From a virus, in IMG/VR virus record IMGVR_UViG_3300031696_000033, positions 1-31,309 of that record: DNA of 31,309 bases; one strand, given 5' to 3'. Each line of letters opens with the position of its first letter. The stretch's first letter is position 1. A model generated the notes under the pieces. It did no database searches. It worked only from the letters and a program-made list of their open reading frames with translations, and was not told the DNA's origin. This document shows, piece by piece, positions 890-26,634 of this stretch. A program made the translations under genes and the position numbers.

Positions 890-1443
890 TAACACATAAA
901 CATCACATAATACCAAAACACGCTGGTGGTAGTGACCATTCTGATAATATTATCAGATTAACAATACCAGAACACGCAGATGCTCATAAGAAACTTTTTG
1001 AGAAAAACGGTATGTGGCAAGATGAACTTGCTTGGAGAGGACTATCAGGACAAATCAGTTGTGCAGAAGCAATTAAAGAAGCACAGATAAAAGGCAATTC
1101 GGGTAATAAGCATAAACTTGGTTATATAACTCCTGAAACAACTAAGAAACGAATTAGTAACTCTTTATTAGGAAGTAAACATTCAGAGGAACACAGACTA
1201 AATAATAGTAATGCACATAAAAATGTAAGCCATTCTGCAAATCATATTAAGAATAGAACTAATGCTCTCAAAAAATCATATAAAATTACATTTCCAGATG
1301 GGAAAATTGAAATAATAACAGGACTTAAAGATTTTGCAAATAAACATGGACTACATTATAGTAATTTGTGTAAAGCTGCAAACAGGAAAAATACTTATAA
1401 ACAATATAATATAAAGAAACTTGACAATGCCAGCATCCAATAA
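886..1443 (+). CDS. HNH homing endonuclease (free-standing)
   Basis: This 185-residue protein starts with an HNH nuclease motif: HHIIPKHAGGSD (6-17), then N21 and H30/H34 in DNIIRLTIPEHADAH. The paired histidines, the Asn and the last His match the metal-binding and catalytic positions of the HNH family. A NUMOD3-like segment (GSKHSEEHR, 96-104) and a C-terminal helix-turn-helix-like region (GLKDFANKHGLHYSNLCKA, 146-164) would provide DNA recognition, as in phage homing endonucleases. It overlaps gp25 by 4 bases, and its last 17 bases overlap the start of gp6. It is an insertion in an otherwise conserved 25-6 gene pair. It probably cuts DNA of related phages lacking the insertion and promotes its own spread; it has no expected role in the virion. 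Confidence 0.88.
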   Translation: MITHKHHIIPKHAGGSDHSDNIIRLTIPEHADAHKKLFEKNGMWQDELAWRGLSGQISCAEAIKEAQIKGNSGNKHKLGYITPETTKKRISNSLLGSKHSEEHRLNNSNAHKNVSHSANHIKNRTNALKKSYKITFPDGKIEIITGLKDFANKHGLHYSNLCKAANRKNTYKQYNIKKLDNASIQ

Positions 1444-3256: not shown

Positions 3257-3257
3257 T

Positions 3258-5240
3258 ATGGCACTAGTAAACCCAAATCAACCAATTCATCCTGCTTTTG
3301 ATGAAAGAATAAGTGTAAAGGTAGAAGGACAGTTGCCTGCATTTGTAAAACAAGACCATTCTACATTTGTTGCTTTCATGGAAGCTTACTATGAGTATAT
3401 GGAGCAAACTGGTAAGCCTTATGAAATTATTGGCAATCTACATCACTACAATAATATTGATAAGACTACTGATGATTTTCTGAATTATTTCAAAAACCAA
3501 TTTGGTAGAGATATACCTCACACGATTTTTGAAAATTCTAATAAACCATTTGTACTAAAACATCTTAGAGATTTTTATCGTACTAAGGGAAGTGAAAAAT
3601 CATTTCAATTTCTTTTTAGATTATTATATAAAGAAGAAATAGATTTTTATTATCCTGGCAGAGATATGCTTCGGGTGTCTGATGGAAGATATACTAAGAA
3701 CAGTATAATAAGAGTTATTGATTCATCTGGAACTGATGCTATATTTACAATAGTAGGAAAAAAGATTACAGGCAATAGTTCGGGTGCGACAGCTGTTGTT
3801 GAAACAGTGTTGAATGAAAATATAGGTTCATTTGTTGCATCTACTGTTTTTCTTTCTAGTATTTTGGGTGTATTTTCTGTAGGTGAAATTATTTCTGATG
3901 GCACCAGTTCTTTTACTACTGGTGGAATGATAACAAGTTATGCCATTACAGGTCTGGGTAATAACTATGTACTTGGTGATATTGTTCCTGTTACTGGTGG
4001 TGGTAATGCTAGTGGAAGTTTTATATCGATAAGTGAATTGACTTCTGGTAAGGTTACGACTACTACTATTGTTTCTGGTGGGACAGGATATGTTGTAGGT
4101 GATAAACTTACAATAAGTAATTGGAATGCTTTTGCAATTGATGGAAGAAGTGCTAGTATACTTGTTAAAACTGTCGATGGTTCTGGAACAATAACAGCAT
4201 TAGAAATTGAACATTCTGGCAGAGGATATACTTCTGTTCCAACAATTTCAGGTGGTGGAACAGGAACAGGTGCAAATATAACTTTAGCTGGTTGGGGTAT
4301 TGGTGGTGTTAAAACTTTGAATATTGTTAATGGTGGATATGGGTTTTCCGAGAATGTTACGTTGGACTTTTCTTCTTTAGGTGATGGGACTGCGACAGGT
4401 ATAGCATCCGTTGGTGCATATGAAGATAATTATCAAAAAGGATTCACTACTAATGATGGATTTCTTTCTGGTGCAAAATATATTCAGGATAGTAAATATT
4501 ATCAAGCGTTTTCTTATGTATTAACTACTAGCAAGACAGTTGATAAGTGGAGGGATTCTGTAAAACGATTAGCACATCCTGCTGGATTGTCATTATTCGG
4601 AAACTTGGAAATTGTTTCTTTAATTACGACAGGCTTTAAGATTACTGGAATACCACAGCGTAGAGATTATAAAATTATTTTCCATGCAGGTGAATCAACT
4701 CCTGTCGTATTAGATTTAAGGGTTGACAGTTGTACACCTTGGTTATTAGACCCGCCAGGAATTGTTCCAAAAGTATTCTATCCTGTGAATGACGGTACAT
4801 TTTATCATGCTGCAACGAAATGTCAAATATATGAGAAAGATTTAGCAATACAATATCTCACAACATTTTCAAGTGAAGATTATCTACAGATAAGTGAGTC
4901 TGAAACTTTACCACCTAATCCAGATATTGAGATGGGACTTATTACTCAATCAGTAATTCTAAAAACAGATATTGAAGATTGGGGAGATTTACATAGCAGA
5001 GCACAAATGAGATTGGGCCCTATTAGAAAAACTCTTGACCAACAGAAATTTAATAAGTTTGGTGGGTTTAGTCAAGAGATTGGTGTTGGAACTGAATCAG
5101 GTACAACAATAAATAGTTTCAGAGAAACTTTAATAGATGATTATATTTATGCTAGGGGAATAAAAACTAAATTGGTTATGAATTCTACTGTTACTAAATA
5201 TACAAATGGAGCAGAAAACACATCATTACCTCCAAGTTAA
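3258..5240 (+). CDS. 7: Baseplate wedge protein at the gp7 position
   Basis: This 660-residue virion protein sits between gp6 and gp8, where T4 encodes gp7 (1032 residues). The N-terminal part (about 20-145) is a recognisable module of marine T4-like baseplate proteins: STFVAFMEAYYEYMEQTGKP, then HLRDFYRTKGSEKSFQFLF and a YYPGRDMLRVSDG end. The middle (about 150-385) consists of Gly/Thr-rich units: a SGATAVVE-type unit, then LGNNYVLGD, GGTGYVVGDKL, SGRGYTSVPTISGGG and NGGYGFSENV. The C-terminal third is unlike anything I can name. Assignment as gp7 rests on gene order plus the N-terminal module; sequence similarity to T4 gp7 itself cannot be judged by eye. The repeats suggest surface-exposed beta structures added to a wedge scaffold. 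Confidence 0.75.
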   Translation: MALVNPNQPIHPAFDERISVKVEGQLPAFVKQDHSTFVAFMEAYYEYMEQTGKPYEIIGNLHHYNNIDKTTDDFLNYFKNQFGRDIPHTIFENSNKPFVLKHLRDFYRTKGSEKSFQFLFRLLYKEEIDFYYPGRDMLRVSDGRYTKNSIIRVIDSSGTDAIFTIVGKKITGNSSGATAVVETVLNENIGSFVASTVFLSSILGVFSVGEIISDGTSSFTTGGMITSYAITGLGNNYVLGDIVPVTGGGNASGSFISISELTSGKVTTTTIVSGGTGYVVGDKLTISNWNAFAIDGRSASILVKTVDGSGTITALEIEHSGRGYTSVPTISGGGTGTGANITLAGWGIGGVKTLNIVNGGYGFSENVTLDFSSLGDGTATGIASVGAYEDNYQKGFTTNDGFLSGAKYIQDSKYYQAFSYVLTTSKTVDKWRDSVKRLAHPAGLSLFGNLEIVSLITTGFKITGIPQRRDYKIIFHAGESTPVVLDLRVDSCTPWLLDPPGIVPKVFYPVNDGTFYHAATKCQIYEKDLAIQYLTTFSSEDYLQISESETLPPNPDIEMGLITQSVILKTDIEDWGDLHSRAQMRLGPIRKTLDQQKFNKFGGFSQEIGVGTESGTTINSFRETLIDDYIYARGIKTKLVMNSTVTKYTNGAENTSLPPS

Positions 5241-5249
5241 AAAATGTCT

Positions 5250-5257
5250 TATAAATA
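5250..5257 (+). promoter_or_regulatory. Late-promoter-like TATAAATA (first of two before gp8)
   Basis: This exact TATAAATA lies in the 74-base gap between the gp7-like gene and gp8. A second copy follows 19 bases downstream, so gp8 may have a tandem late promoter. Confidence 0.5.
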
Positions 5258-5268
5258 CAAATAAGTAT

Positions 5269-5276
5269 TATAAATA
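5269..5276 (+). promoter_or_regulatory. Late-promoter-like TATAAATA before gp8
   Basis: This exact TATAAATA ends 38 bases ahead of the gp8 start codon. Initiation near 5282 would leave a leader of about 33 bases that contains the AAAGGA ribosome site, a plausible spacing for a late promoter. Confidence 0.55.
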
Positions 5277-5314
5277 TACAAAAAAGTAAATAACAATAAA
5301 AGGAACAACTAATT

Positions 5315-6676
5315 ATGAGTGCTATTATACACGACGGCTTTAGAAAATTCAATGCAGATAATTTTATTGATTTTATTGACGGTACACCAAAAGTATTGTA
5401 TCTGGGTATTGGAAAGCCCACACCTTGGTCTGGTAATAGTATTGGTGAATATGCTGATGCTTCTGTTGGTAATCCATATTCTGATACTGTTATCCCTGTT
5501 CCCATTGATACCACAGTAGCTCCATATTTGCATTATGCAGATTTGTTAGCTGTTAAAAAGATTAATTCTCCAAGTACCTCTCATGTACTTAAAAGAATTG
5601 ATTGGACATCGGGTACAGTTTATGTTGAATATAATCATAATACAAACAATCTTATAGATGTAGACTTTTTTGTAATGACCGATCAATATAATGTGTACAA
5701 GTGTATCAGTAATTATAGTGGTGCTGCGTCTGTAGTTAAACCAACAGGACAATCAGAAAATATTATCGAAACATCAGATAATTATAGATGGAAATTCATG
5801 TTTGAAATTCAACAGGCAGATGTATTGACCTTTGTTACTCCCGATTGGATTCCAGTAAATTCTCCAGGCACAGCTAATCAATCAAACCAACAAAATGTAG
5901 AGAGTACTGCTGTTGATGGTGCGTTAGACCAAATATCTGTAACAGCCGGTGGAACTAATTATAAAAGTAATGTTGGTACTTCAGCTGCAACAGGAACAGT
6001 CAATACAATTAAATTAGCATCTGGTTCTGGAGATCATCTTGTCGATGACCAATATAATAATATGACTGTATATATTTCTGCTGGAACCGGAGAAGGACAA
6101 TTTAGTACTATTAGTGATTATGTTGGTGCAGATCAAATTGCTACTGTTTCACCTGCGTGGGCATTAGCAACTGATAGTACAAGTGTTTATCAAGTTATGC
6201 CTGCTGTTACACTTGTAAGTACTACCTCAACTTCTACTGCAACAGCAAGAGTATCAAGTGTGATTGGAGGAGTCATTAAAAAAGTTTCTACAATTGCTGT
6301 CGGTGCTGGATATAGAAGTGCTACAGCAACGATTACTAGTGGTGGTGGTACAGGTGCAACAATTTTTCCAATCATAGGCCCTGCTGGTGGACATGGTAAA
6401 GATTCTGTATCAGAACTCGGTGGTGCTTTTGTTATGTTGAATACAAGACTTATTGGTTTTGAGGGTGGTATAGTTCCCATTAACGATGATTTTAGAAAAG
6501 TTCATTTAATAGTAGACCCAAAATTAGCAGCGGATGATACAATAGCAACAGCATCCGTTATACTTGGTAGTGATCTTAAAGTTGGTTCTGGTTCTATAAT
6601 TTATTCAGAGTTTAGAGCACCGATTAACAGAGCAGCTGATTCTACTGAAGATATAAAATTAGTTGTTGAATTTTAA
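5315..6676 (+). CDS. 8: Baseplate wedge protein gp8
   Basis: This 453-residue protein is gp8-like (T4: 334 residues). In T4, gp8 dimers sit on the baseplate wedge and link gp7, gp6 and gp10. Family features visible here are the N-terminal DGFRKFNADNFIDFI and LYLGIGKPTPW segments, the NVYKCISN motif near residue 127, the nearby NYRWKFMFEI, and the PINRAADSTEDIKLVVEF C-terminus. The excess length over T4 is explained by Gly-rich units in the second half: TAGGTNYKSN near 209 and VGAGYRSATATITSGGGTG near 328. An AAAGGA ribosome site precedes the ATG, and tandem late-promoter motifs lie upstream. Confidence 0.88.
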   Translation: MSAIIHDGFRKFNADNFIDFIDGTPKVLYLGIGKPTPWSGNSIGEYADASVGNPYSDTVIPVPIDTTVAPYLHYADLLAVKKINSPSTSHVLKRIDWTSGTVYVEYNHNTNNLIDVDFFVMTDQYNVYKCISNYSGAASVVKPTGQSENIIETSDNYRWKFMFEIQQADVLTFVTPDWIPVNSPGTANQSNQQNVESTAVDGALDQISVTAGGTNYKSNVGTSAATGTVNTIKLASGSGDHLVDDQYNNMTVYISAGTGEGQFSTISDYVGADQIATVSPAWALATDSTSVYQVMPAVTLVSTTSTSTATARVSSVIGGVIKKVSTIAVGAGYRSATATITSGGGTGATIFPIIGPAGGHGKDSVSELGGAFVMLNTRLIGFEGGIVPINDDFRKVHLIVDPKLAADDTIATASVILGSDLKVGSGSIIYSEFRAPINRAADSTEDIKLVVEF

Positions 6677-12121: not shown

Positions 12122-12321
12122 ACGAAACTAAGTTTATTAGGGATACTGTTTCCAAGGCGGTACTAAATACTGATGTAAATGCATTGGAACAATATAAGTT
12201 AGCAAGAGATAGAAAGATAAAAGAAAAAAATATTATTGAGGGTTGTGTAGATGATATAAATAGTTTAAAAGATGATATGCAAGAAATCAAAAAACTTTTA
12301 CTAAAGTTAAGCGAGAAATAA
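12118..12321 (+). CDS. Small coiled-coil protein
   Basis: This 67-residue charged protein of unknown function starts inside the stop codon of the giant virion gene (ATGA overlap) and ends one base before the fibre gene. The C-terminal half (about 42-65, with INSLKDDMQEIKKLLLKL) has leucine/isoleucine spacing typical of a short coiled coil. No signal peptide or membrane segment is seen. Its tight coupling to both neighbours suggests a role in assembly or attachment of the fibre to the giant baseplate protein, but this is inference from position only. Confidence 0.65.
   Translation: MNETKFIRDTVSKAVLNTDVNALEQYKLARDRKIKEKNIIEGCVDDINSLKDDMQEIKKLLLKLSEK
12255..12262 (+). promoter_or_regulatory. 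Late-promoter-like TATAAATA inside the small coiled-coil gene
   Basis: This exact TATAAATA lies 60 bases ahead of the first fibre gene (12323), which otherwise has no intergenic promoter space. It could provide independent late expression of the fibre. Because it is within coding sequence, it may be chance. Confidence 0.35.
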
Positions 12322-12322
12322 T

Positions 12323-13831
12323 ATGGCAAAGAGAGTTCAAAGACGAAGAGGAACAACTGTAGACCATTCTACCTTTACAGGCGAAGAAGGTGAATTGACG
12401 GTTGACATCACTGTTGATACTGTAGTCGTACATGACGGTATTACTGTTGGTGGACATCCATTAAGTAGAGCAGATGGTAGCAATCTTAATTTGTTAAACT
12501 CCATTGGTGTACCAGAATTAAATCTTTCAGATGGAAATACTGGATATGTTCTGCAAACAGATGGTGCAGGAACTATAAGTTTTACAAATGTACCAGATGT
12601 TTCTGGTTCATCTGTTGGCGGTGACTTATCAGGTACAGTTGGTAATGCACAGATAGTCTCTGGTTCTGTCGGTATTCCAGAATTAAATCTTTCAGATGGA
12701 AATGCTGGTCAAGTACTTTCTACAGACGGCGCAGGAACTATAAGTTTTACTAGTCAAACTGATGTCTCTGCTTCAGCTATCGGTGGTGACTTATCAGGTA
12801 CAATTGGTAATGCACAGATAGTTGCAAACACGATTGGTGTTGCGGAGTTGAATGTTGCAGCAGATGGTTCTTCTGGACAAGTGTTAGCTACTAATGGTAC
12901 AGGTGATTTCTTCTTTACAACTAATACTGGTAGTATGGGTGCTAGTTCTTCTACCTTTGTAGAAAACAATTTTGCAGGCGATGATGTTACAACAGTATTT
13001 ACTTTAAGTCTGCCTGTATTGATTGAAGAATCAATTTTAGTTTTTATTGATGGTGTAGCACAACCAACAGCTTCTTATAATTTACCAACAACAACGACCA
13101 TTGATTTTATTAGTTCTCCACCAGCTACTGATTCAGATATCAGAGTCTTACATTTAGGTATTGCTTCTGAAATTTTAGACAATACTATTAATGGTGCTAA
13201 GATAGCAATGGGTGCGGATGTTACGGGTGATATGATTTATTTTAATGGTACAGATTACCGAAGATTGGGAATCGGAACAGCTGGTCAACATCTTGCGGTT
13301 AACTCTGGTACTTCCGCTCCTGAATGGGTTAACAGTGTAACAGTAGGTGGTGGTCAGGTATTGCAAACACAATTTGTAAATAAATCTGATATTTTTGAAG
13401 CTACTGTAAATTTTAATGCTTATCAAGATGTTCCTGGCTTGACCAAAACTATTACACCATCACTTGCTACTAGTAAAATATTTTTGAGTGGAACTGTAAT
13501 GGCTTCTATTAATACAAAAACTCTTTGTGTTAGAATTATGAGGTCAATCAATAGTGGTGCATTTGTAGAGGTTGGTTCGGGTGATACCGCAGGTGTTAGA
13601 AATACAGCACACTCTTCTATTTTAATGAGTGGTGGTTCTGTTGGGCCAGATCCAATGTCAATTCATTTCGTTGATAGTCCAAATACACTTTCTAGTGTTG
13701 AGTATAAATTACAATTAAAAGATGATGCTGATATTGGTCAATGGTGGATAAATTCACCCATTAATAATCCAAATGCTGCGACTAGTAGTGTACGGACTAA
13801 TAGTGGATTCACCCTACAAGAGTTATCATAA
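12323..13831 (+). CDS. Tail fibre with Mtd-like N-terminus and 55-residue repeats
   Basis: This 502-residue fibre protein opens with RRGTTVDHSTFTGEEGELTV and VVVHDGITVGGHPL (about 8-49), the pattern of the short N-terminal domain found in Mtd-like and many marine phage fibres. Residues about 61-200 consist of a 55-residue repeat (two full copies and a partial third) with the core ELNLSDGNxG and GGDLSGTxGNAQIV, probably a shaft. Then comes a module with FIDGVAQP (about 250) also seen in neighbouring fibres, and a C-terminal beta-sandwich-like domain (from VLQTQFVNKSDIF, about 347, to the end) that resembles the tip domain of the protein at 20005. It likely trimerises and contacts the host surface. 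A ribosome site is weak, so translation may be coupled to the preceding gene. Confidence 0.85.
   Translation: MAKRVQRRRGTTVDHSTFTGEEGELTVDITVDTVVVHDGITVGGHPLSRADGSNLNLLNSIGVPELNLSDGNTGYVLQTDGAGTISFTNVPDVSGSSVGGDLSGTVGNAQIVSGSVGIPELNLSDGNAGQVLSTDGAGTISFTSQTDVSASAIGGDLSGTIGNAQIVANTIGVAELNVAADGSSGQVLATNGTGDFFFTTNTGSMGASSSTFVENNFAGDDVTTVFTLSLPVLIEESILVFIDGVAQPTASYNLPTTTTIDFISSPPATDSDIRVLHLGIASEILDNTINGAKIAMGADVTGDMIYFNGTDYRRLGIGTAGQHLAVNSGTSAPEWVNSVTVGGGQVLQTQFVNKSDIFEATVNFNAYQDVPGLTKTITPSLATSKIFLSGTVMASINTKTLCVRIMRSINSGAFVEVGSGDTAGVRNTAHSSILMSGGSVGPDPMSIHFVDSPNTLSSVEYKLQLKDDADIGQWWINSPINNPNAATSSVRTNSGFTLQELS
12503..12927 (+). repeat. Tandem 165-base repeat in fibre gene
   Basis: Units start at 12503, 12668 and 12833, an exact 165-base (55-codon) period; the third unit is partial. 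The first two copies share long identical stretches, including CAGAATTAAATCTTTCAGAT. The repeat encodes the fibre shaft segment and could expand or contract by recombination. Confidence 0.85.
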
Positions 13832-14272: not shown

Positions 14273-15127
14273 ATGTCATTTGTTAATCATGGTAGACACA
14301 TTGGTACTGTTGGTGTAGCACAACCAGAAACTATAGGTGGCATAGAAACCTATTATGGTGGATTTAAAATTCATACATTCTTAACTTCTGGAACATTTGA
14401 ATACTCTGGTAGTTCTAAAACTTTAACATCACAGGTTCTTGCTGTCGCTGGTGGCGGCGGTGGCGGAGGAGGACAAGGTGGTGGTGGAGCGGGTGGTATG
14501 GTAACACAAACAATATCTGTTACTCCTGGCATAGTTAATGTTGTTGTTGGGGCTGGCGGTGGTCAATCAACTCGTGGTTTTAATAGTCAAACTAGTATAT
14601 CTGGTGAAACTATAGCATTAGGTGGTGGTTCTGGAAATTCTGGTTCTGGAACAGAAACTGGTGGAAGTGGTGCTGGTCAAGGTAGAGCGGGTGGTGGTGC
14701 TGCCGGAACAGTTGGTCAAGGAAATAATGGTGGAAATGGTGCAAATTGTGGTTCCGTGACTGGTGGTGGCGGAGGCGGAGGTGCAGGGGCAGCAGGATCT
14801 AGTGCGCCAGGTTTCGGTGGTTGTCCAGGCTGTGGTGGCTGTAATGGTGGTGGTTCTGGAGCAGGCGGCGCAGGATTATCAAATTTATTAAGAGCAGACT
14901 CTTCAGTTTTTTATGCTGGTGGTGGTGGCGGCGGAGGAGGAAATGTTAGTGGTAATGGTGGTGAATCAGCTGGTGGTATTGGTGGCGGAGGAAATCCGGG
15001 CTCATCTCCGGGCAACGCAGACGGTGTTGAAAATACTGGTGGTGGTGGTCATGGTTCGGGAAGTGGTTCAAATGCTGGTCTTGGTGGCAGAGGAATAGTT
15101 GTTATCAGAGTACCGTTTCCTTTATAA
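14273..15127 (+). CDS. Glycine-rich tip/adhesin protein with a CxxCxxC motif
   Basis: This 284-residue protein has a short N-terminal part (1-55, with FKIHTFLTSGTFEYSG) and then an extended Gly-rich domain (about 58-270) with runs of consecutive glycines interrupted by short loops. It ends with GGRGIVVIRVPFPL, a variant of the C-terminal strand shared with the three paralogues at 18863, 23871 and 25090. This is the architecture of glycine-rich phage adhesins, where polyglycine helices present variable loops, as known for the gp38 tip of phage S16. Unusually, all four cysteines lie in the Gly-rich part: C159 and C184, C187, C190 (CPGCGGC). It lacks the SDPTxSTNPSGGVG linker of the other three, so it may be attached differently. 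Role as a receptor-binding tip is inferred from architecture. Confidence 0.78.
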   Translation: MSFVNHGRHIGTVGVAQPETIGGIETYYGGFKIHTFLTSGTFEYSGSSKTLTSQVLAVAGGGGGGGGQGGGGAGGMVTQTISVTPGIVNVVVGAGGGQSTRGFNSQTSISGETIALGGGSGNSGSGTETGGSGAGQGRAGGGAAGTVGQGNNGGNGANCGSVTGGGGGGGAGAAGSSAPGFGGCPGCGGCNGGGSGAGGAGLSNLLRADSSVFYAGGGGGGGGNVSGNGGESAGGIGGGGNPGSSPGNADGVENTGGGGHGSGSGSNAGLGGRGIVVIRVPFPL

Positions 15128-15143
15128 TATAGAGAGAGGTTTT

Positions 15144-15635
15144 ATGGGACATTTTGCAAAAGTTATAGATAATAAAGTTGTTAATGTAATCGCAGCTGAC
15201 CAGAAATTTATAGACCAGTATGATGATGGTCTTGGTGGTGAATGGATTAAGACTTCTTACAATACATGGGGTGGAAAACATTATGACCCTGTAACTGGTT
15301 TGGAAGATAGTAAACCCCATCTAAGATATAATTATGCTGGATACGATTATACATATGACCGAGAGAATGACGCGTTCATTCCTCCTAAACCATATCCAAG
15401 TTTTGTATTTAATGAAACAACATTTAGGTATGAACCCCCAATTACATACCCAACAGGATTTAAAGGTGGGCCTAATAGATTTATTTGGGATGAAGAAAGT
15501 GTAAGTTGGTTAGATATGTGGAGTACAGCACATTCTTTATCAAATTATAATTCAGATTCAAAATATTTTGATTCAACAGTCGTACAGTACGAAGACCCTA
15601 ATTATTCTTTTGATGACAAACCTTATAGATGGTAA
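15144..15635 (+). CDS. Fibre-associated protein, 'HFAK...IPPKPYPS' family
   Basis: The chosen start at 15144 gives 163 residues. It has an excellent AGAGAGAGG site (15131-15139), whereas the in-frame ATG at 15099 would overlap the previous gene by 29 bases. The protein begins MGHFAKVIDNKVVNVI and carries YNYAGYDYTYDREN and DAFIPPKPYPSF. This is a family I recognise as common and unassigned in marine T4-like phages. A shorter paralogue lies at 26308, and both directly follow a glycine-rich tip gene. A role as a chaperone, cap or accessory of that tip is a reasonable guess, unproven. The C-terminus here is longer than in the paralogue. Confidence 0.78.
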   Translation: MGHFAKVIDNKVVNVIAADQKFIDQYDDGLGGEWIKTSYNTWGGKHYDPVTGLEDSKPHLRYNYAGYDYTYDRENDAFIPPKPYPSFVFNETTFRYEPPITYPTGFKGGPNRFIWDEESVSWLDMWSTAHSLSNYNSDSKYFDSTVVQYEDPNYSFDDKPYRW

Positions 15636-16197: not shown

Positions 16198-16205
16198 TAT
16201 AAATA
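16198..16205 (+). promoter_or_regulatory. Late-promoter-like TATAAATA (first of two)
   Basis: This exact TATAAATA begins 10 bases after the preceding stop codon, in the 126-base gap 16189-16314. A second copy at 16260 suggests a tandem promoter pair for the following structural gene. Confidence 0.5.
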
Positions 16206-16221
16206 AATAAAAACATCATAG

Positions 16222-16241
16222 TTACCATGATTTTATGGTGA
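16222..16241 (+). other. Small hairpin between two promoter-like motifs
   Basis: TTACCAT pairs with ATGGTGA (7 pairs including one G-T) around a 6-base loop. There is no following T run, so it is not a convincing intrinsic terminator. It would lie in the 5' leader of a transcript from 16198 and might affect its processing or stability. Confidence 0.3.
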
Positions 16242-16259
16242 AATGGAGAGAGTTAGTAT

Positions 16260-16267
16260 TATAAATA
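16260..16267 (+). promoter_or_regulatory. Late-promoter-like TATAAATA before the 108-residue virion protein
   Basis: This exact TATAAATA ends 47 bases ahead of the ATG at 16315. Initiation near 16273 leaves a leader containing the AAAGGA ribosome site at 16301-16306. Confidence 0.55.
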
Positions 16268-18862: not shown

Positions 18863-19978
18863 ATGGCTTCGACTATAAAAGTAGACACAATAACAACTCC
18901 AGATGGAAATGGAAATATTACGTTTAGTAGACCTATTGTAGGTGATGGTAGTAATTTAACTAACTTGCCTAGTGATATTACTAAGTCAGCATCTGACCCG
19001 ACAATCTCAACTAATCCTTCTGGTGGTGTTGGTACAGTATTTCTAAACACAACGACAGGTGAGATGTTTTCATTAACGGATGCGACAGCCGGTGCAAATA
19101 TTTGGACAAACACTGGTGATGGTACTGGACTGATATCAAACTTTACGGGGATGGTAGGAACTGGCGGCACAATTACTACTGATGGAAATTTCAAAGTTCA
19201 TTCTTTTACATCGTCTGGTACTTTTGAAGTTACTACTCTTGGCAGTGAGGCAGTTGTCGAATATCTGGTTATCGCTGGAGGTGGTGGGGGAACTCGAAGG
19301 CCTACAGCTGGCGGCGATGGTGGTGCAGGAGCGGGTGGTTACTTAACAGCAACAGGATTTTCGGTGTTGGCTCAAACATATTCAATTACAGTTGGTGCAG
19401 GTGGTGTTGGTGCTTCAGGTGCTGTTGGTGGTACTGGGAATGACTCTGTTTTTAGTTCTATTACCTCTGATGGCGGTGGTGGTGGTGGTTACGGAGCAAC
19501 TTCCTTGTTACTTTCGACAGGTGGTGCTGGAGGTTCTGGTGGCGGCAGTGGTTATCTAAATACAACCGCTGGTGGTGTAGGCACTGTAGGGCAGGGGAAT
19601 AATGGTGGAGCAGGTTTGATGGTTGGTGGCGGGAGTTCGATCTCTGGCGGCGGAGGCGGCGGTGCTGGTGCTGTTGGTGCTGTTGGGGCAAGCCTTGCAA
19701 ACGGAGGTGCTGGTGGTGCAGGATTGGCTTCCAGCATTACAGGCTCATCAATTTCGCGTGCAGGTGGCGGCGGAGGCGGTGCAGATAGTCGGAACGGTAA
19801 TACAGGGGGAGTGGGTGGTACAGGAGGAGGCGGAGCTGGAAGTGGATCTGGTGGTGGTGCGGAGCCGGGAACAGTAAATACAGGTGGCGGGGCAGGAGCA
19901 GTTGGTTCTGGCGGAGAAGGCGCTCCTGAGAGTGGCGGGTCAGGCATAGTAATAATCAGATACCAATTTCAAGAATAA
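18863..19978 (+). CDS. Glycine-rich tip/adhesin, paralogue 1
   Basis: This 371-residue protein has an N-terminal fibre linker with GDGSNLTNLPSDITKSAS and SDPTISTNPSGGVGT (about 30-58), then LTDATAGANIW, then TTDGNFKVHSFTSSGTFEV leading to EYLVIAGGGGG (about 133). Residues 138-358 are Gly-rich with short variable loops, closed by SGIVIIRYQF. The same order is found in the genes at 23871 and 25090. Polyglycine-helix adhesins such as S16 gp38 are the closest known architecture. The repeated GGT/GGC/GGA codons make this a local G+C-rich island. Opposite-strand proline-rich frames here are shadows. Receptor-binding function is inferred. Confidence 0.82.
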   Translation: MASTIKVDTITTPDGNGNITFSRPIVGDGSNLTNLPSDITKSASDPTISTNPSGGVGTVFLNTTTGEMFSLTDATAGANIWTNTGDGTGLISNFTGMVGTGGTITTDGNFKVHSFTSSGTFEVTTLGSEAVVEYLVIAGGGGGTRRPTAGGDGGAGAGGYLTATGFSVLAQTYSITVGAGGVGASGAVGGTGNDSVFSSITSDGGGGGGYGATSLLLSTGGAGGSGGGSGYLNTTAGGVGTVGQGNNGGAGLMVGGGSSISGGGGGGAGAVGAVGASLANGGAGGAGLASSITGSSISRAGGGGGGADSRNGNTGGVGGTGGGGAGSGSGGGAEPGTVNTGGGAGAVGSGGEGAPESGGSGIVIIRYQFQE

Positions 19979-19983
19979 CTAAT

Positions 19984-20010
19984 AAATATAAAGAAGGATA
20001 AATTATGTCA
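19984..20010 (+). repeat. 27-base leader repeat, copy 1
   Basis: This run is identical to 21112-21138. It spans the ribosome site (AGAAGGATAAATT) and the first codons (ATGTCA) of the gene at 20005. The similarity continues into coding sequence, showing that the whole 5' end was duplicated. Confidence 0.85.
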
Positions 20011-20736
20011 GAACTTCTAACTAATAAAATTACACCAACAACTGGTACTGCTATAACGCTAGGTGACTCTGGTGATACTCTTACAGTACCAGTAGGTGCT
20101 ACTTTAGCGGTAGCAGGTGCAGCTACTGTAGGAACCTCGTTAGCGGTAGCAGGAACATCTACGGTAGGAGGAGTATCTGTAGTTGCAACTGCTCCAGGCA
20201 CATCAGGTAATGTTTTAACTAGCACTGGTTCTGCTTGGGCTAGTAGTGCAGTAGCTGCTGGGGGTAAGGTTTTGCAAGTTGTTCACACAGTAAAGACGGA
20301 TACTTTTTCAACCTCCACTACTGGATCATGGGTAGATGTTACAGGGCTTACTGTCACTACTGGATCATTGGCAAGCACAGGGAGCAAAGTTCTGGTGCAG
20401 GTAACGATGAATGCAGGGTCAACTGCTGATTACGCCAATGCTAGAGTGGTTGATGGGTCTGGAAATTTTATTACAGGATTTGGTGGAGATGCGGCTGGGG
20501 GCAGACATAGAGCAAGTTTTGGCACATTTTATCGGGGGGCAGACGGTGGGGGGAATATCCAGCTTCGCATGGCTGTAAACTTATACGACAGCCCCGGCTC
20601 TACATCAGCCCAAACTTACAAAGTTCAGACTTATTCTAACGGAATTTTGTATATAAATCGTTCCGTCACTGATGCAGACAATACTTCCATTGGTCGCTCT
20701 GTTAGCACAATATCAGTTATGGAAATAGGAGTATAA
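20005..20736 (+). CDS. Short tail fibre with beta-sandwich tip
   Basis: This 243-residue protein starts MSELLTNKITPTTGTAITLG, with a Gly/Ala/Thr/Val-rich repeat (TLAVAGAATVGTSLAVAG). It then has a tip domain from about residue 89 (GGKVLQVVHTVKTDTFSTST) to the end (TVTDADNTSIG-like segment, ISVMEIGV). The tip domain resembles the C-terminal domain of the large fibre at 12323, so this is a short fibre with the same type of head. The first 30 residues and the leader are shared with the gene at 21133, which has an unrelated C-terminus. The tip DNA is less A+T-rich than the core genes (27 of 60 G+C at 20461-20520). Confidence 0.8.
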   Translation: MSELLTNKITPTTGTAITLGDSGDTLTVPVGATLAVAGAATVGTSLAVAGTSTVGGVSVVATAPGTSGNVLTSTGSAWASSAVAAGGKVLQVVHTVKTDTFSTSTTGSWVDVTGLTVTTGSLASTGSKVLVQVTMNAGSTADYANARVVDGSGNFITGFGGDAAGGRHRASFGTFYRGADGGGNIQLRMAVNLYDSPGSTSAQTYKVQTYSNGILYINRSVTDADNTSIGRSVSTISVMEIGV

Positions 20737-20785
20737 ACTATATTACAGCAATCGAAATCTCAGCTTAATTTTGAAAGGATAACAA

Positions 20786-21088
20786 ATGACAGATATAATT
20801 TCAGCAATTTCGGCAATTAACCCAGACGCACAAGTGTCTGTTAACGGTGAAGACTATGAACAAATTACTTGGCATAACAACACAGCAGTAATAAGTAAGA
20901 GTGACATCGTAGCAAAACAAGCAGAACTCAAAACTGCTTATGATGCTCTAGATTACAGCAGAAAACGTAAGGTTGAGTATGATGCATTAAATCAATTAGA
21001 ACTTATCTCTGACGATTCAGTTGCGGGTACAACAACACATAAAGATGCTGTTCTTGCGATCAAAGCTAAGTACCCAAAACCTGAATAA
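20786..21088 (+). CDS. Small fibre-associated protein (100 residues)
   Basis: This protein begins MTDIISAISAINPDAQVSVN, continues ITWHNNTAVISKSDIVAKQA, and ends GTTTHKDAVLAIKAKYPKP. I recognise this as a family widespread beside fibre genes of marine T4-like phages and distantly reminiscent of XkdW-like or fibre-assembly proteins. The helical middle (about 37-65) could form a coiled coil. It directly follows the short fibre at 20005, so a role in folding or attaching that fibre is plausible but not shown. An AAAGGA ribosome site is present. Confidence 0.72.
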   Translation: MTDIISAISAINPDAQVSVNGEDYEQITWHNNTAVISKSDIVAKQAELKTAYDALDYSRKRKVEYDALNQLELISDDSVAGTTTHKDAVLAIKAKYPKPE

Positions 21089-21111
21089 CGATCTGAAAAT
21101 AGTAAATAATA

Positions 21112-21138
21112 AAATATAAAGAAGGATAAATTATGTCA
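21112..21138 (+). repeat. 27-base leader repeat, copy 2
   Basis: This is an identical copy of 19984-20010, placed over the ribosome site and start codon of the gene at 21133. Confidence 0.85.
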
Positions 21139-21651
21139 AGACTTCTAACAAATAAAATTTCAGCTGCATCTGGGACTACTATAACACTAGGTGATTCTGG
21201 AAATACCTTTGCAATACCAACAGGAGCTACTTTAACTATAGGTGGTGCATCACTAGCTACTAGTCCATTAAGTACAGCATTAGACGGACAAGATAATATT
21301 GTTTCAAAGATAAACTTAAAAGATTATGGTGAAGTTACAAATGCAATTGGTAGTACAGGTGGTGGTACTCAGGATATTGATTTAACTTTAGGGAATTCTG
21401 TCTCAGCCACTGTTGACACGAGCGCAAATACTTTCACATTCTCTAATCCGACAGTTTCAGATGAACTTTGTGGTTTTACATTGATGTTGACTAATGGTGG
21501 AGCGCAGACTGTAAACTGGCCTGCTACGGTAGACTGGGCGGCAGCAACGCCACCGACACTCACGGCAGCAGGTGTGGACTGTTTAGTTTTCTGGACAATC
21601 GATGGAGGCACTATTTGGAACGGTGCGCCCGTTGCTTTGACGTTATCATAA
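21133..21651 (+). CDS. Short tail fibre, same anchor as 20005 with a different tip
   Basis: This 172-residue protein starts MSRLLTNKISAASGTTITLG, near-identical in design to the N-terminus of the protein at 20005. The C-terminal domain (about 57-172) is different: INLKDYGEVTNAIG, then TFTFSNPTVSDELCGFTLML and QTVNWPATVDW, and ends APVALTLS. I recognise this tip type in many phage tail proteins, where it is usually C-terminal. The gene is followed after one base by the next, so the two may be translated together. Confidence 0.8.
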   Translation: MSRLLTNKISAASGTTITLGDSGNTFAIPTGATLTIGGASLATSPLSTALDGQDNIVSKINLKDYGEVTNAIGSTGGGTQDIDLTLGNSVSATVDTSANTFTFSNPTVSDELCGFTLMLTNGGAQTVNWPATVDWAAATPPTLTAAGVDCLVFWTIDGGTIWNGAPVALTLS

Positions 21652-21652
21652 T

Positions 21653-23383
21653 ATGACTAATTTAAAACGAATGATGATGGGAGTAGCTAAAGGTGGGGGG
21701 GATCAGGTGATTGCTATGAGCAGTAATGACTGGGATTATACTTTTGCACAAAGTGAATGGCCTGCGGCTGGCAATGCGCTTGGCGATCATACATTAGGTG
21801 GATTTATTGATCCTACAGGGGGAGATTCTGCTCTATACTCCTTAATCACTTTTGATGGTGATTGCATTGTTAGTTTTATTGCAGCAGGCATAAACGATAA
21901 TAATAATGGTGCTTGGGGATTCATGGCTATAGATGAAGACGATACAAGATCTGCATCTGACACTGGCAATATGAAGAACATGACCAACTCTTTTTGGTAT
22001 GACGAGGCTAGCGCAAGCGGAAAAGATTTCTATATAGGAGGGTCAGCCGAAAGTGATGCCGAAACTTTTGCGGAAGGCGTTGAAGTTCGATGGGAAAGAG
22101 TTGCTGGAACAATAAAAGTTTACAAGGATGATGCACTTGTTCATACGTTTTCATCGACTTATTCAGGGACTATACGCTGGTGCTTTGCAGCACATGGTTC
22201 TCCTTTCGAACAAAACTATGACAATATCTTCTTCACCGACACTGATAAAATTCAGCGTGATGGATTCCTATATGGAGTAGATGTCTCTGGACAAGGCGTT
22301 GGTGATGGATGGGCAAACGGTAGAAACGTAGGGGCATTAATACCCTGCACAAGATCAGGCGAAGTTCAGACCATTCAGTTTATATCAGATAATATTACCG
22401 CTAATTGGACAGGGCATATAGAGGTTTGGACTTCCGATGGAACAAGTCCTGTAGCGCAGATTGGAGGAGATTCAGCCGGTGCAACGATAAGCACCACAGG
22501 CTTACAGTCAATTTCATGGGCATCTGATTTTCCTCCCGTTACTAAAGGTGCAAGCTATTGGTATATTTTTGTTGACACAGGCGGGTCAGGAAGGATTGCC
22601 ATTGATGATATGAACCCTCTCGCAGGGATGGCCCAAGGAACAAACGACACGCTAACAAGCATGGCAGTTGGTGATGAGGCTAGAACGATGAGGCTTGACG
22701 TTGAAATAGATACTTCAGCCGGAGAACCAACACCTGACCACGACACTCTTTTGCTTATTCATTCTGATACTACTGATGCTAGTACTACTTTTGTTGACTC
22801 TAGTCAGACTGGGAGAACTATTACGGTAGCAGACAATGCTCAACATGATACTGCTCAAAAGAAGTTCGGGGCAAGTGCAATTTTATTTGACGGGACGGGT
22901 GATTATTTGACTTACCCTGATTCGCCCGATTGGAAGCCAGCAGCTATAACAATAGATTTGTGGATTAGATTAGACACTAATGGCATATCCCAGCCAATAA
23001 TGGGCCAGTGGGGAGGGGGTGCTTCTTCTGCTCATGCTTGGTATCTTCATATCGGTGGGGGAAATACGATTGAATGGACTGTGAGTAATGGTAGTAGCTC
23101 TGTTACTTCCAGTAGCACGACTGCAATGAGTACAGGGACGTGGTATCACATTGCGGCTGTGTATAACTCTAATGGTGGAGGGTCTGGTATCTGGGTTAAT
23201 GGAACCAGTGAGGCTACAAATTCATCGTTAGTGACAATTCAGGATTATGCGGAGGTTGTCAGGATCGGCACAGATTTCGCAAGTCGTTATTTTGACGGAT
23301 GGATGGACGAAATAAGAATATCAAAAACGGCAAGATGGGAACCGGGCGTAGCCTTCACACCCCCTTCAGCACCTTACTCTTAG
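21653..23383 (+). CDS. Adhesin with SPRY-like and LamG-like domains
   Basis: This 576-residue protein has three apparent domains. Residues about 20-200 resemble a SPRY/concanavalin-like sandwich (NNGAWGFMAIDEDD, VEVRWERVAGTIKVYKDD). Residues about 205-355 are a beta-sandwich of unknown type (GHIEVWTSDGTSPVAQIG, KGASYWYIFVDTG). Residues about 362-576 fit a LamG/concanavalin-type jelly roll (DGTGDYLTYPDSPDWKP, ITIDLWIRLD, WYHIAAVYNSNG, DGWMDEIRISKTARW). Such domains bind glycans or mediate adhesion. There is no shaft-type N-terminus, so it probably joins the fibre encoded just upstream. The DNA is clearly less A+T-rich than the core (32 of 60 G+C at 22441-22500), pointing to acquisition by transfer. 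Confidence 0.78.
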   Translation: MTNLKRMMMGVAKGGGDQVIAMSSNDWDYTFAQSEWPAAGNALGDHTLGGFIDPTGGDSALYSLITFDGDCIVSFIAAGINDNNNGAWGFMAIDEDDTRSASDTGNMKNMTNSFWYDEASASGKDFYIGGSAESDAETFAEGVEVRWERVAGTIKVYKDDALVHTFSSTYSGTIRWCFAAHGSPFEQNYDNIFFTDTDKIQRDGFLYGVDVSGQGVGDGWANGRNVGALIPCTRSGEVQTIQFISDNITANWTGHIEVWTSDGTSPVAQIGGDSAGATISTTGLQSISWASDFPPVTKGASYWYIFVDTGGSGRIAIDDMNPLAGMAQGTNDTLTSMAVGDEARTMRLDVEIDTSAGEPTPDHDTLLLIHSDTTDASTTFVDSSQTGRTITVADNAQHDTAQKKFGASAILFDGTGDYLTYPDSPDWKPAAITIDLWIRLDTNGISQPIMGQWGGGASSAHAWYLHIGGGNTIEWTVSNGSSSVTSSSTTAMSTGTWYHIAAVYNSNGGGSGIWVNGTSEATNSSLVTIQDYAEVVRIGTDFASRYFDGWMDEIRISKTARWEPGVAFTPPSAPYS

Positions 23384-23392
23384 GAGACACAA

Positions 23393-23839
23393 ATGGAATA
23401 CTGTTTAGTAGAAGAGGGTCAGCTTATGCAAGGCCCACAACGATTACCAAAGAACTGGAAGAATGTTTCTGGTTTGAATTTAGGCACACAAGCAGAACTA
23501 AAAGAAAAAGGATGGCTTCCAGCTGTTCTAATACAGCCTACTTTTGATAAAGCTACACATAAAAGAGCAGCACGATCAGTAGTTATAGGTGCAGATGATG
23601 TCACGTTTACTTGGGCAACTGAAGCACTTAATGTATCTGACAAGTGGGAGAACTGGAAGAAGACTATGACCGAGAGTGATTTAGCGGGTGATGTAATGTC
23701 TAGAGAGTTTGAAGATCATCTTGAGTCTGACCATGGCGGACTAGCTACTAATGCGGCACAACAAGCTAAGTATGATGAGAAGAAAGCGAAACGAGCTTTG
23801 AAACCAGAAAAACCTGCTGACCCTGTATTACCCGAATAA
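23393..23839 (+). CDS. Putative fibre assembly/accessory protein
   Basis: This 148-residue protein directly follows the LamG-type adhesin, with a TAGGAG ribosome site. The N-terminal LMQGPQRLPKNWKNVSGLNL (11-30) and KEKGWLPAVL are reminiscent of the short proteins encoded after fibre genes (tail-fibre assembly-like). The C-terminus is charged and helical (AQQAKYDEKKAKRALKPEKP). No signal peptide or membrane segment is seen. The position and size suit a chaperone for the upstream adhesin, but no catalytic or binding motif proves it. Confidence 0.68.
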   Translation: MEYCLVEEGQLMQGPQRLPKNWKNVSGLNLGTQAELKEKGWLPAVLIQPTFDKATHKRAARSVVIGADDVTFTWATEALNVSDKWENWKKTMTESDLAGDVMSREFEDHLESDHGGLATNAAQQAKYDEKKAKRALKPEKPADPVLPE

Positions 23840-23870
23840 ATTAAGATAGATAATTACTAAGGATACCTAA

Positions 23871-25064
23871 ATGGCAATATCAAAAATAACAATTAATTCA
23901 TTAGAATCCCCTTTAAATTTACCTGCAAATAATTTAACTGGTACTATTGCAGATTCCCAAATTGCGACATTGGACGCCAGTAAACTAACTGGTACTTTGC
24001 CAGCTATTAGTGGTGCTTCTCTAACAGGCATTGAAACTTTTACTAAGTCAGCATCCGATCCGACAATCTCGACTAATCCTTCTGGTGGTGTTGGTACAAC
24101 TTGGTTAAACACGACTACAGGTTCTATGTTTTCGTTAACAGACGCAACTGCTGGTGCGAATGTTTGGCTCAACACTGGAGATAGGACAGGTCAAATTCCT
24201 CCGATAGCTTGGTCAGTAGCCACTGGCGGAACAATTACTACAGACGGAAATTTCAAGGTTCACTCTTTTACTACATCAGGCACATTTGAGATCACCACCT
24301 TGGGGGATGATGCCATAGTGGAGTACCTGACAGTTGCTGGTGGGGCTGGTGGGTGTTATCAACATGGAGGTGGAGGTGGAGCAGGCGGTTATCGTACAGC
24401 CACAGGATTTTCAGTATCCGCATCAAGTTATACTATTACAGTTGGTGGTGGAGGAGCAGGTTCTGTTGCTATTGGTAATGGAGCAGGAAACCCCGGCGCA
24501 AGTGGGGGTGATAGTATTTTTAGTAGTATTACGTCCTCAGGTGGTGGTGGGGGAGCTTGTTATCGGGGGTCTTCTGCGGATGTTATAGGGGCTGCCGGGG
24601 GTTCAGGCGGTGGTGGTGGTAACAATACAGCTGCTAATGGGGCAACTCAAGCTGGCGGTGCAGGTAACACACCTTCCACTAGCCCTTCTCAAGGAAATGC
24701 TGGTGGATCTGGTCTAGGTTCTTCTGCCAATCGGGGCGGCGGTGGAGGAGGAGCAGGCGCAGCAGGGGAGTCCGCTCCTGATGTTTCTATTGGTGGGGCA
24801 GGCGGAGCAGGAGCTACTTCATCCATTACAGGTTCGGCAGTTACAAGGGCCGGAGGCGGCGGTGGAGGTAATAATGCTAACACCACCACTGCTGCTGGAG
24901 GAGCGGGTGGAGGAGGTAATGGCGGTGTTAGCACATCAATAGCGTCTGTAGCCGGAACAGCTAATACAGGTGGCGGAGGAGGTGGGGGTGGATCATGGAC
25001 AGTCGCTTCCGTTGCTGGCGGCTCAGGTATAGTAATTATTCGATACCAATTTCAAGCAGCTTAA
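23871..25064 (+). CDS. Glycine-rich tip/adhesin, paralogue 2
   Basis: At 397 residues this is the longest glycine-rich adhesin here. The N-terminus has shaft repeats (LTGTIADSQIATLDASKLTG), also found in the fibre at 16688, followed by the shared linker SDPTISTNPSGGVGT and LTDATAGANVW. Then comes TTDGNFKVHSFTTSGTFEI leading to EYLTVAGGAGG (about 150). The Gly-rich domain (about 155-385) has loops different from its paralogues, with CYQHGG and ACYRGSS as distinctive cysteine-containing loops. It ends SGIVIIRYQF. Sharing both linker and C-terminal strand with 18863 and 25090 shows a common origin, and the divergence is concentrated in the loops. An alternative receptor-binding tip is the likely role. 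Confidence 0.82.
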   Translation: MAISKITINSLESPLNLPANNLTGTIADSQIATLDASKLTGTLPAISGASLTGIETFTKSASDPTISTNPSGGVGTTWLNTTTGSMFSLTDATAGANVWLNTGDRTGQIPPIAWSVATGGTITTDGNFKVHSFTTSGTFEITTLGDDAIVEYLTVAGGAGGCYQHGGGGGAGGYRTATGFSVSASSYTITVGGGGAGSVAIGNGAGNPGASGGDSIFSSITSSGGGGGACYRGSSADVIGAAGGSGGGGGNNTAANGATQAGGAGNTPSTSPSQGNAGGSGLGSSANRGGGGGGAGAAGESAPDVSIGGAGGAGATSSITGSAVTRAGGGGGGNNANTTTAAGGAGGGGNGGVSTSIASVAGTANTGGGGGGGGSWTVASVAGGSGIVIIRYQFQAA

Positions 25065-25089
25065 ATAAATAAATAAACAGGAAAACTAA

Positions 25090-26208
25090 ATGACAACTAA
25101 AGTCACTACAGATTTAATAACAAGTGTGGACGCAAGTAAACTGACAGGTACAATTGCAGATGCTAGATTCCCTGCTACTTTGCCAGCTATTAGCGGGGCT
25201 AGTTTGACAAACCTTCCCAGCGATATTACTAAACAATCTTCTGATCCTACAGTATCAACTAACCCTTCTGGTGGAGTGGGTAGCATTATCTTGAACACTT
25301 CCAACGGTAAGCTGTTTGTCCTCACTGATGCAACAGCTGGAGCCAATGTTTGGCAAGCTGCCGTATCTGGAAATATACCTGCCTTAACTTTGGCTACTGG
25401 TGGAACAGTCACTACTGATGGTGATTACAAGGTTCACACTTTTAATACTTCTAGTGATTTTATAGTTTCTCTTTCTGATGCCCCAGTAGAATACCTAGTT
25501 ATTGCTGGTGCTGGCGGCGGCGGCGGTGATAATGGCGGCGGCGGCGGTGGAGCAGGAGGATATAGAACTGCCACAGCTTTTGCTGTTACGGCACAGACTT
25601 ACGCTATAACTATTGGTGGTGGTGGTGCTGGCGGAGTAGGTGGTACCAATGGTGTAGCTGGCTCTGACAGCGTGTTTTCAACTGTCACCTCGGATGGCGG
25701 AGGCTATGGAGGCGGTGGTAACGGAGCAAGTGTTAGCCCGGAATCTGCCACTACTCGTGCAGGTGGTTCAGGTGGTGGTGGCGGTGCTTCAGGAGCGGAA
25801 GTAATAATTGGTGGTACGGCAACAGTAGGGCAGGGTAATGATGGTGGAGACACGGTCAATGCGTCAGGGTACCCGTCAGGTGGTGGTGGTGGCGCAGGGG
25901 CGGAAGGTGACGATGGCACGACAACAGAAGCTGGTGATGGTGGAGTGGGTTTGAGTTCTAGCATCACAGGTTCAGCCGTTTATAGGTCGGGTGGTGGCGG
26001 AGGTGGAGCTACAGGTTCAGGCGCAATTATTATTGGCGGTACTGGAGGCAATGGTGGGGGTGGGGCAGGCGGTATCCCTTCAGGTAATGGTAATGCAGGA
26101 ACGGTAAACTCAGGCGGCGGTGGAGGAGGGGGTGGAGATAATAGCCCTTCTGCAAATGGAGCCGCTGGCGGCGCCGGAGTTGTAATTCTTCGATACAAAT
26201 TTCAATAA
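25090..26208 (+). CDS. Glycine-rich tip/adhesin, paralogue 3
   Basis: This 372-residue protein has the same plan as the preceding gene: a shaft repeat (VDASKLTGTIADARF), the linker ASLTNLPSDITKQSS and SDPTVSTNPSGGVGS, then LTDATAGANVW. It continues with TTDGDYKVHTFNTSSDFIV, EYLVIAGAGGGGG (about 133), a Gly-rich domain to about residue 360 and a final GVVILRYKFQ. It starts 25 bases after paralogue 2, and the two form a tandem pair. Loops are again different. It is followed by a copy of the HFA...IPPKPYPS family, as is the adhesin at 14273. Confidence 0.82.
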   Translation: MTTKVTTDLITSVDASKLTGTIADARFPATLPAISGASLTNLPSDITKQSSDPTVSTNPSGGVGSIILNTSNGKLFVLTDATAGANVWQAAVSGNIPALTLATGGTVTTDGDYKVHTFNTSSDFIVSLSDAPVEYLVIAGAGGGGGDNGGGGGGAGGYRTATAFAVTAQTYAITIGGGGAGGVGGTNGVAGSDSVFSTVTSDGGGYGGGGNGASVSPESATTRAGGSGGGGGASGAEVIIGGTATVGQGNDGGDTVNASGYPSGGGGGAGAEGDDGTTTEAGDGGVGLSSSITGSAVYRSGGGGGGATGSGAIIIGGTGGNGGGGAGGIPSGNGNAGTVNSGGGGGGGGDNSPSANGAAGGAGVVILRYKFQ

Positions 26209-26307: not shown

Positions 26308-26634
26308 ATGAGTCATTTCGCAGAAATCAATTCAGATAACATTGTACAAAGAGTAATAGTAGCAGAACAGAATTTCATCAACTCAGGAGCAGTAGGTGAT
26401 AGTTTCAATTGGGTACAGACGAGTTACAATGGTAACTTCCGTAAGAATTATGCTGGTAATGGTTATACATACGATAAAACTAGAGATGCGTTTATTCCAC
26501 CTAAACCATACCCTAGTTGGACTTTAGTGGAAGCTACTTGTCAGTGGGAATCACCAGTTGCATATCCTAGTGATGGTAAAAGGTATTCGTGGGATGAAGA
26601 CCTGACTAACTGGGTCGAAGATCCAGACTTATAA
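26308..26634 (+). CDS. Fibre-associated protein, second 'HFA...IPPKPYPS' copy
   Basis: I place the start at ATG 26308 (108 residues), preceded by AAAGGAAAA; upstream in-frame starts at 26278 and 26281 lack such a site. The protein begins MSHFAEINSDNIVQRVIVAE and has WVQTSYNG, NYAGNGYTYDKTRDAFIPP and KPYPSW, and ends YSWDEDLTNWVEDPDL. It is a shorter paralogue of the protein at 15144. Both follow a glycine-rich adhesin directly, suggesting that the family works with that adhesin type. The 99 bases before it (26209-26307) hold no other gene I can support. Confidence 0.8.
   Translation: MSHFAEINSDNIVQRVIVAEQNFINSGAVGDSFNWVQTSYNGNFRKNYAGNGYTYDKTRDAFIPPKPYPSWTLVEATCQWESPVAYPSDGKRYSWDEDLTNWVEDPDL

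Follow-up and report, generated by a model that had tools for sequence, protein, structure and literature searches.

Glycine-rich adhesins and the modular exchange of their parts are already known. In the cyanophage Pam3, one fibre-chaperone pair has been described, in which the fibre gp24 joins a helical N-terminal shaft to a TNF-like base and a glycine-rich tip, and forms a trimeric 3:3 complex with the small chaperone gp25 (7YPX; PMC9608196). In the haloarchaeal hafunaviruses, for example HF2, a glycine-rich tip gene is followed by a small gene within a hypervariable region, and this adhesin tracks host range across isolates (PMC8651126). The gp38 adhesins of T2, S16 and PP01 likewise present glycine-rich strands with hypervariable loops at the fibre tip, loops are exchanged modularly, and gp38 of T2-type phage binds OmpC (PMC12892980). 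The Melnitz phages of OM43 bacteria (Kyanoviridae) carry three glycine-rich tips with a phrog_7759 gene behind each, and their natural variants differ in this region. The authors of the Melnitz study reported altered lengths for nine genes without recognising the tip-chaperone cassettes; on a small OM43 panel, four isolates that differ in their tip cassettes showed the same host range (PMC9004378).

These precedents bear on what such domains may do. Glycine-rich domains could attach virions to surfaces or to each other without setting host range; the equal host ranges of the Melnitz cassette variants agree with this, and we know of no receptor for any marine member. Such general stickiness is nevertheless improbable as the main role, given that the hafunavirus adhesin follows host range (PMC8651126) and that T2-type gp38 has a defined protein receptor (PMC12892980).

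The window analysed here, the whole 31,309-bp linear IMG/VR record IMGVR_UViG_3300031696_000033, is an incomplete genome of a marine T4-like phage with four glycine-rich tip genes. Its tail module is T4-like: the baseplate wedge genes occupy 440-6676, a long fibre cassette extends from 12323 to about 27264, and neck and sheath-stabiliser genes come thereafter, an order shared with the cultured phage Melnitz. The four tip genes, A (14273..15127, 284 aa, 36% Gly), B (18863..19978, 371 aa), C (23871..25064, 397 aa) and D (25090..26208, 372 aa), are intact open reading frames with their own ATG starts, all on the + strand, as are the other features described below. In contrast to the single pair of Pam3, the window has four tips and two chaperone-like genes, with an adaptor standing where gp24 has its long helix. 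It also differs from the hafunaviruses, for which archaeal hosts and a single adhesin gene per virus are described (PMC8651126); from gp38, which caps the long-fibre protein gp37 with a polyglycine-II sandwich tip and has a beta-helix base and a three-layer lattice (PMC12892980); and from Melnitz, in which an adaptor of the window's type is absent. No description of a multi-tip bank with a pair that changes slots, even into the head operon, was found in the open-licence papers searched.

The reading favoured here, with a probability of roughly two in three, is that A to D are Pam3-type receptor tips with shared chaperones, that they are renewed at conserved junctions through recombination between phages, and that they are probably displayed together. 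A to D would form the receptor-binding distal modules in short tail fibres and share the Pam3 gp24 fold, their glycine-rich loops extending from a TNF-like beta base to a variable tip. The phrog_7759 proteins encoded after A and after the C-D pair would act as fibre-tip chaperones on the conserved base, and one chaperone could thus serve several unrelated tips. Through their differing N-termini the tips would attach at distinct places on the fibre or baseplate, and all copies would be made late, probably for the same virion. New specificities would come mainly from homologous recombination with other phages; with breakpoints in the adaptor and last strand, which are conserved, or at gene ends, a whole tip, or a tip with its chaperone, could be replaced or moved to another slot. 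Related phages show that tips are exchanged between phages as such ready-made modules. The attachment target could in this way change without rebuilding of the tail, which bears on the means by which phages infecting abundant but uncultured marine bacteria keep pace with changing receptors.

Sequence and fold of the tip family

The original prediction described B, C and D as paralogues with the same linker, lead-in strand and last strand around a variable glycine-rich core, and the gene at 14273 as a fourth variant. The linker, here called the adaptor, is a 151-nt repeat (family D4) at 18978..19128 in B, 24040..24190 in C and 25226..25376 in D; the copy in B is 81% identical to the one in C and 65% identical to the one in D. 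It is followed by the lead-in strand (repeat family D7; 19160..19234, 24222..24296 and 25396..25470, respectively) and, beyond the core, by the last strand (repeat family D18; 19931..19972, which reads GGSGIVIIRYQFQ in B, 25014..25055 and 26164..26205). The exact shared motifs hold for B and C, which both carry SDPTISTNPSGGVG, LTDATAGAN(I/V)W, TTDGNFKVHSF and SGIVIIRYQF; D has only close variants, namely SDPTVSTNPSGGVG, LTDATAGANVW, TTDGDYKVHTF and AGVVILRYKF. Gene A possesses the glycine-rich core expected of a fourth variant, but lacks the adaptor and has only weak counterparts of the strands. The cores of B, C and D between these ends are divergent, as had been proposed.

All four genes exceed the curated cut-off of the Pfam family PF21722 (Gly_rich_2; 24.3 bits), with scores of 31.7 to 76.4 bits and E-values of 2e-7 (A), 5e-17 (B), 4e-21 (C) and 3e-14 (D), and each matches phrog_2295. 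Their likeness is thus far above low-complexity chance. This likeness is a family-wide trait found in many phages and is not special to B, C and D; multiple tip copies are also common among relatives. A regular-expression search found no adaptor joined to a non-glycine tip, yet two open reading frames of contig L168 match the linker profile and bear other tips. Core trees leave a single B+C+D clade undecided (p-AU 0.875; linker tree 0.076). Against phage isolates, tblastn with C retrieved pieces of the N-terminus or lead-in only, a restriction probably due to low-complexity masking of the core.

Searches of PDB sequences with C, the tip profile and the chaperone profile returned no relative, and the PDB relatives of both proteins were recovered by fold comparison only. 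A single-chain AlphaFold2 model of C, built from 45 relatives (pLDDT 85.8), resembles the Pam3 fibre gp24 (7ypx_A) along residues 126-397; 190 residues align at rmsd 3.1, giving Z 15.4. A tail-tip chain of Bxb1 (9d93_Qb) follows at Z 15.2, all other entries reach at most 7.6, and T-even gp38 structures were not among the matches listed; the HF2 protein also matches the C model. The model has the TNF-like base and glycine-rich tip that characterise a Pam3 gp24-type fibre. The long N-terminal helix, or helical baseplate-docking domain, of gp24 is absent from it, and its sole N-terminal helix comprises five residues (28-32) in a low-confidence region. On this model, C is likened to gp24 in its working, yet is not classed as a full gp24. 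By fold, A to D are taken to be receptor-tip proteins; the model and the analogous adhesins suggest that the window's own copies bind receptors, each presumably with its own specificity.

The phrog_7759 partner gene and its candidate function

Directly behind A and directly behind D lie genes of phrog_7759, a family of unknown function. The open reading frame behind A (15099..15635; phrog_7759 E 5e-24) overlaps that of A, has its probable start at 15144 (MGHFAKV) and aligns with family A3. The gene behind D (26308..26634, 108 aa from the ATG at 26308) is assigned to the family by alignment and by a near-identical relative in contig L279.

A single-chain model of the D-side protein (pLDDT 88.8) has as its best match, among 350,542 PDB chains, the 162-residue Pam3 chaperone gp25 (7ypx_a). 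The match covers gp25 residues 1-57, the client-binding domain that embraces the fibre; its figures are weak taken alone (Foldseek E 0.23, Z 5.2, 56 residues), and it is the sole chain with Z of at least 2 among 217. The model thus shows, at a weak score, the N-terminal client-binding beta-sandwich of the gp25 kind. In contrast to gp25, whose C-terminal part is a helical trimerisation domain, no such domain is predicted for the window's protein, which has no similarity to that part; the C-terminal half of the model consists of strands and contains no helix. A chance match is unlikely, because two adjacent genes independently retrieve both members of one Pam3 complex.

Gene neighbourhoods point the same way. 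Among 68 contigs fetched by the chaperone gene alone, a glycine-rich tip lies immediately upstream of phrog_7759 in 57, and the same arrangement occurs in 6 of 10 isolates. Some relatives instead come after 2OG-Fe(II) oxygenase genes; in three of the four exceptional isolates, phrog_7759 follows the oxygenase gene or the oxygenase's neighbour. Tip and chaperone are one unit, since the phrog_7759 genes after A and D best match Pam3 gp25. The modelled fold gives the family a candidate function, likely that of a folding chaperone of the fibre tip. The original prediction overlooked both chaperone-like genes as well as the mobility of the tip-chaperone pair.

Exchange and movement between phages

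The shared ends were originally proposed as sites of recombination that swaps tips, and breakpoints of the expected kind are present in relatives. Contigs L006, L010 and L013 form a three-way mosaic that breaks within the adaptor, at SDPTISTNP|AGGVG, and before the last strand, at ASGG|KAGGSGVVIIRYQF (chi-square 321 versus at most 21.7 across 200 permutations). L010 and L013 agree at 256/268 informative sites in positions 4010-4780, compared with 10/122 before, and their cores are 97% identical within flanks that are 83.5% identical. The opposite pattern occurs in L061 and L065, in which 99-100% identity surrounds cores that are about 60-65% identical. Flank-matched pairs fall mostly into two classes, with cores either as similar as the flanks or unalignable.

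Two slots of the window show the same signature. For slot B compared with L009, codon identity is 64% in surrounding genes and gene parts and 39% in the core (p 9e-6); for slot D compared with L254, it is 57% around and 35% in the core (p 4e-5). In both, the cores are synonymously saturated and the flanks are not. Saturation confined to the core indicates an older core history, which is expected from recombination and not from selection on amino acids. These data bear on the view that the tips descend from old duplications and, without recombination, were driven apart by rapid adaptive point mutation. Differences in loop length and sequence are what strong selection would produce; however, synonymous saturation of a core between two unsaturated flanks is not an outcome of selection on amino acids, the flank-matched cores are mostly flank-like or unalignable, and the L010 and L013 cores are more alike than their flanks. 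For the relatives this view is refuted by the mosaics, and for the window it is highly improbable.

Complete replacement of a tip is seen between L278 and L279, in which unrelated tips lie between 162 nt at 90% identity upstream and 4,344 bp at 99.4% identity downstream. The swap runs from the adaptor start to the tip gene's stop codon, and with flanks this similar, one chaperone stands beside two unrelated tips. Such swaps were observed in relatives and not within the window's own population. The one contig nearly identical to the window, L015, encodes a D protein that is 100% identical, and it matches the window without a difference across D and the final 185 nt of C.

Tip and chaperone also move together. 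In three contigs from three samples (L277, L278 and L279), the pair lies just upstream of the scaffold gene gp22, and in L279 it is demonstrably located between the head protease gene gp21 and gp22, so that tail-tip genes sit in the head operon. The chaperone of L279 shares 94% identity with its counterpart in the window. In L254, the pair sits before the neck genes, as in the window, the gp21-gp22 gap is merely 42 nt, and the match to L279 picks up again right behind the cassette. Direct repeats flanking the gp21-gp22 insertion are only about 10 nt long, and for this reason no site-specific mechanism is claimed. Contig L014 was initially considered a relative of the D slot and was rejected, as its cassette proved to lie between gp21 and gp22; comparison with it reflects the histories of tip and chaperone and not slot orthology.

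Cultured phages show similar changes. Around the region, Melnitz isolates share 19 kb at 99.94% identity and 8.8 kb at 100%, and Melnitz-3, compared with its sisters, has lost a tip-chaperone pair at one slot and has a pair at another. At the emptied slot, the N-terminal 102 residues are kept at 93% identity and the C-terminus is new. Assembly chimeras are unlikely, because these are cultured isolates. A concrete unit of adaptor, tip and chaperone thus emerges, together with the junctions at which it is exchanged and near-identical variants from nature; with some of these variants in culture, a link between tip content and adsorption is directly testable. A broader proposal is put forward tentatively, at somewhat below even odds: tip and chaperone may form a self-sufficient mobile cassette in the gene pool of marine T4-like phages, occupying several slots including the head operon and exchanging the tip at fixed adaptor and gene-end junctions, so that a virion would hold several independently replaceable specificities with few chaperones.

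Copies within one genome and their predicted expression

The exchange seen between phages does not extend to the window's own copies, for which the original prediction had also envisaged swapping. At conserved amino acids, identical codons number 53/129, 48/129 and 52/124 in the three core pairs of B, C and D, compared with 45.0, 45.8 and 43.0 expected from codon usage; the cores are at chance, and a weak excess appears in at most one segment per pair. The nearest relatives of each core were found in other phages, in trees that are themselves unresolved. The flanks retain more likeness, with 25/42 identical codons in the B and C adaptors (16.2 expected) and lead-in identity at the 99th percentile, and copies on the same contig are slightly more alike than shuffled ones (core 0.275 versus 0.248).

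These residual likenesses would suit a switchable archive, in which a single working tip would be converted by intragenomic recombination with the remaining copies, kept as silent donors. However, the B adaptor is equally close to that of another phage, L014 (25/41), the cores are at chance for synonymous identity, and all four copies are intact, have their own starts and fall in predicted late units. The 31-kb window, part of an incomplete genome, yielded no reverse transcriptase, invertase, serine recombinase or tyrosine integrase, and the Mtd_N domain occurs there in gene 12323 only. A silent archive is accordingly a long shot, and the suggested switchable repertoire finds no switch-like element in the window.

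Predicted promoters place the copies in two units. T4-type TATAAATA boxes, which match the consensus, lie upstream of 12323, 16315 and 26722; one (12255..12262) is ahead of the unit of A, and two late-promoter-like boxes (16198..16267) are ahead of the unit with B, C, D and the second chaperone-like gene. By these consensus matches, A would be expressed late in a unit apart from B, C, D and the second chaperone, which would share another. Late-promoter-like sites number 13 compared with 6.3 expected; a scan for Sigma-70 promoters gave results at chance level. Display of several tips on one virion is plausible.

The presence of several copies could also reflect a division of labour, in which the tips belong to structurally different fibres, for example for reversible and irreversible attachment, and their number follows from fibre architecture and not from a repertoire of specificities. 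The N-termini do differ: B has a ASTIKVDTITTPDG-type head, C and D have LTGTIADS/LPAISGAS repeats, and A is without the adaptor. Gene A, moreover, is placed in a late unit apart from the others, where a chaperone-like gene accompanies it, and keeps its synteny in the relatives L246, L248 and L250. A fixed architecture is nonetheless rather unlikely to account for the bank, since slots are gained and lost between near-identical phages, contig L012 has an additional tip adjoining B, and copy number varies: complete isolates have between 1 and 11 matched tip stretches, with the maximum in Synechococcus phage Bellamy.

Tip and adaptor arrangements in relatives

In the glycine-rich tip of the cultured OM43 phage Melnitz-3 (L267:24027-25001), the last strand (GGSGVMIIRY) precedes the lead-in strand (YEYHVFTSSGTF). 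This tip looks circularly permuted; alternatively, the same strand order could reflect a truncated second domain. A further phage sequence (L168:12393-15355) has two ORFs in which a match to the adaptor profile leads into a tip of another kind of sequence, so the adaptor may be usable by more than one type of tip. Synechococcus phage Bellamy has 11 Gly_rich_2 stretches, several of them within two-domain proteins.

A contig edge and phrog_7759 relatives

A contig from a different sample (L015), 99.94% identical to the window, begins at window position 24880, within the core of tip gene C (23871); strain variation or repeats could account for a break at that point. In DSL-LC04, S-SSM5 and S-CAM8, relatives of the small chaperone-like phrog_7759 genes follow 2OG-Fe(II) oxygenase genes or oxygenase neighbours rather than glycine-rich tips, and modified fibres are possible there.

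Other genes of the tail module

The product of the fibre gene at 12323-13831 carries Mtd_N (E 1.7e-10), the domain that stands at the N-terminus of the major tropism determinant in Bordetella phage, and no reverse transcriptase to accompany the gene was found within the 31-kb window. Between gp25 and gp6, an ORF at 886-1443 with an HNH-like motif (HKHHIIPKHAGGSDHSDNIIRLT) probably encodes a homing endonuclease.
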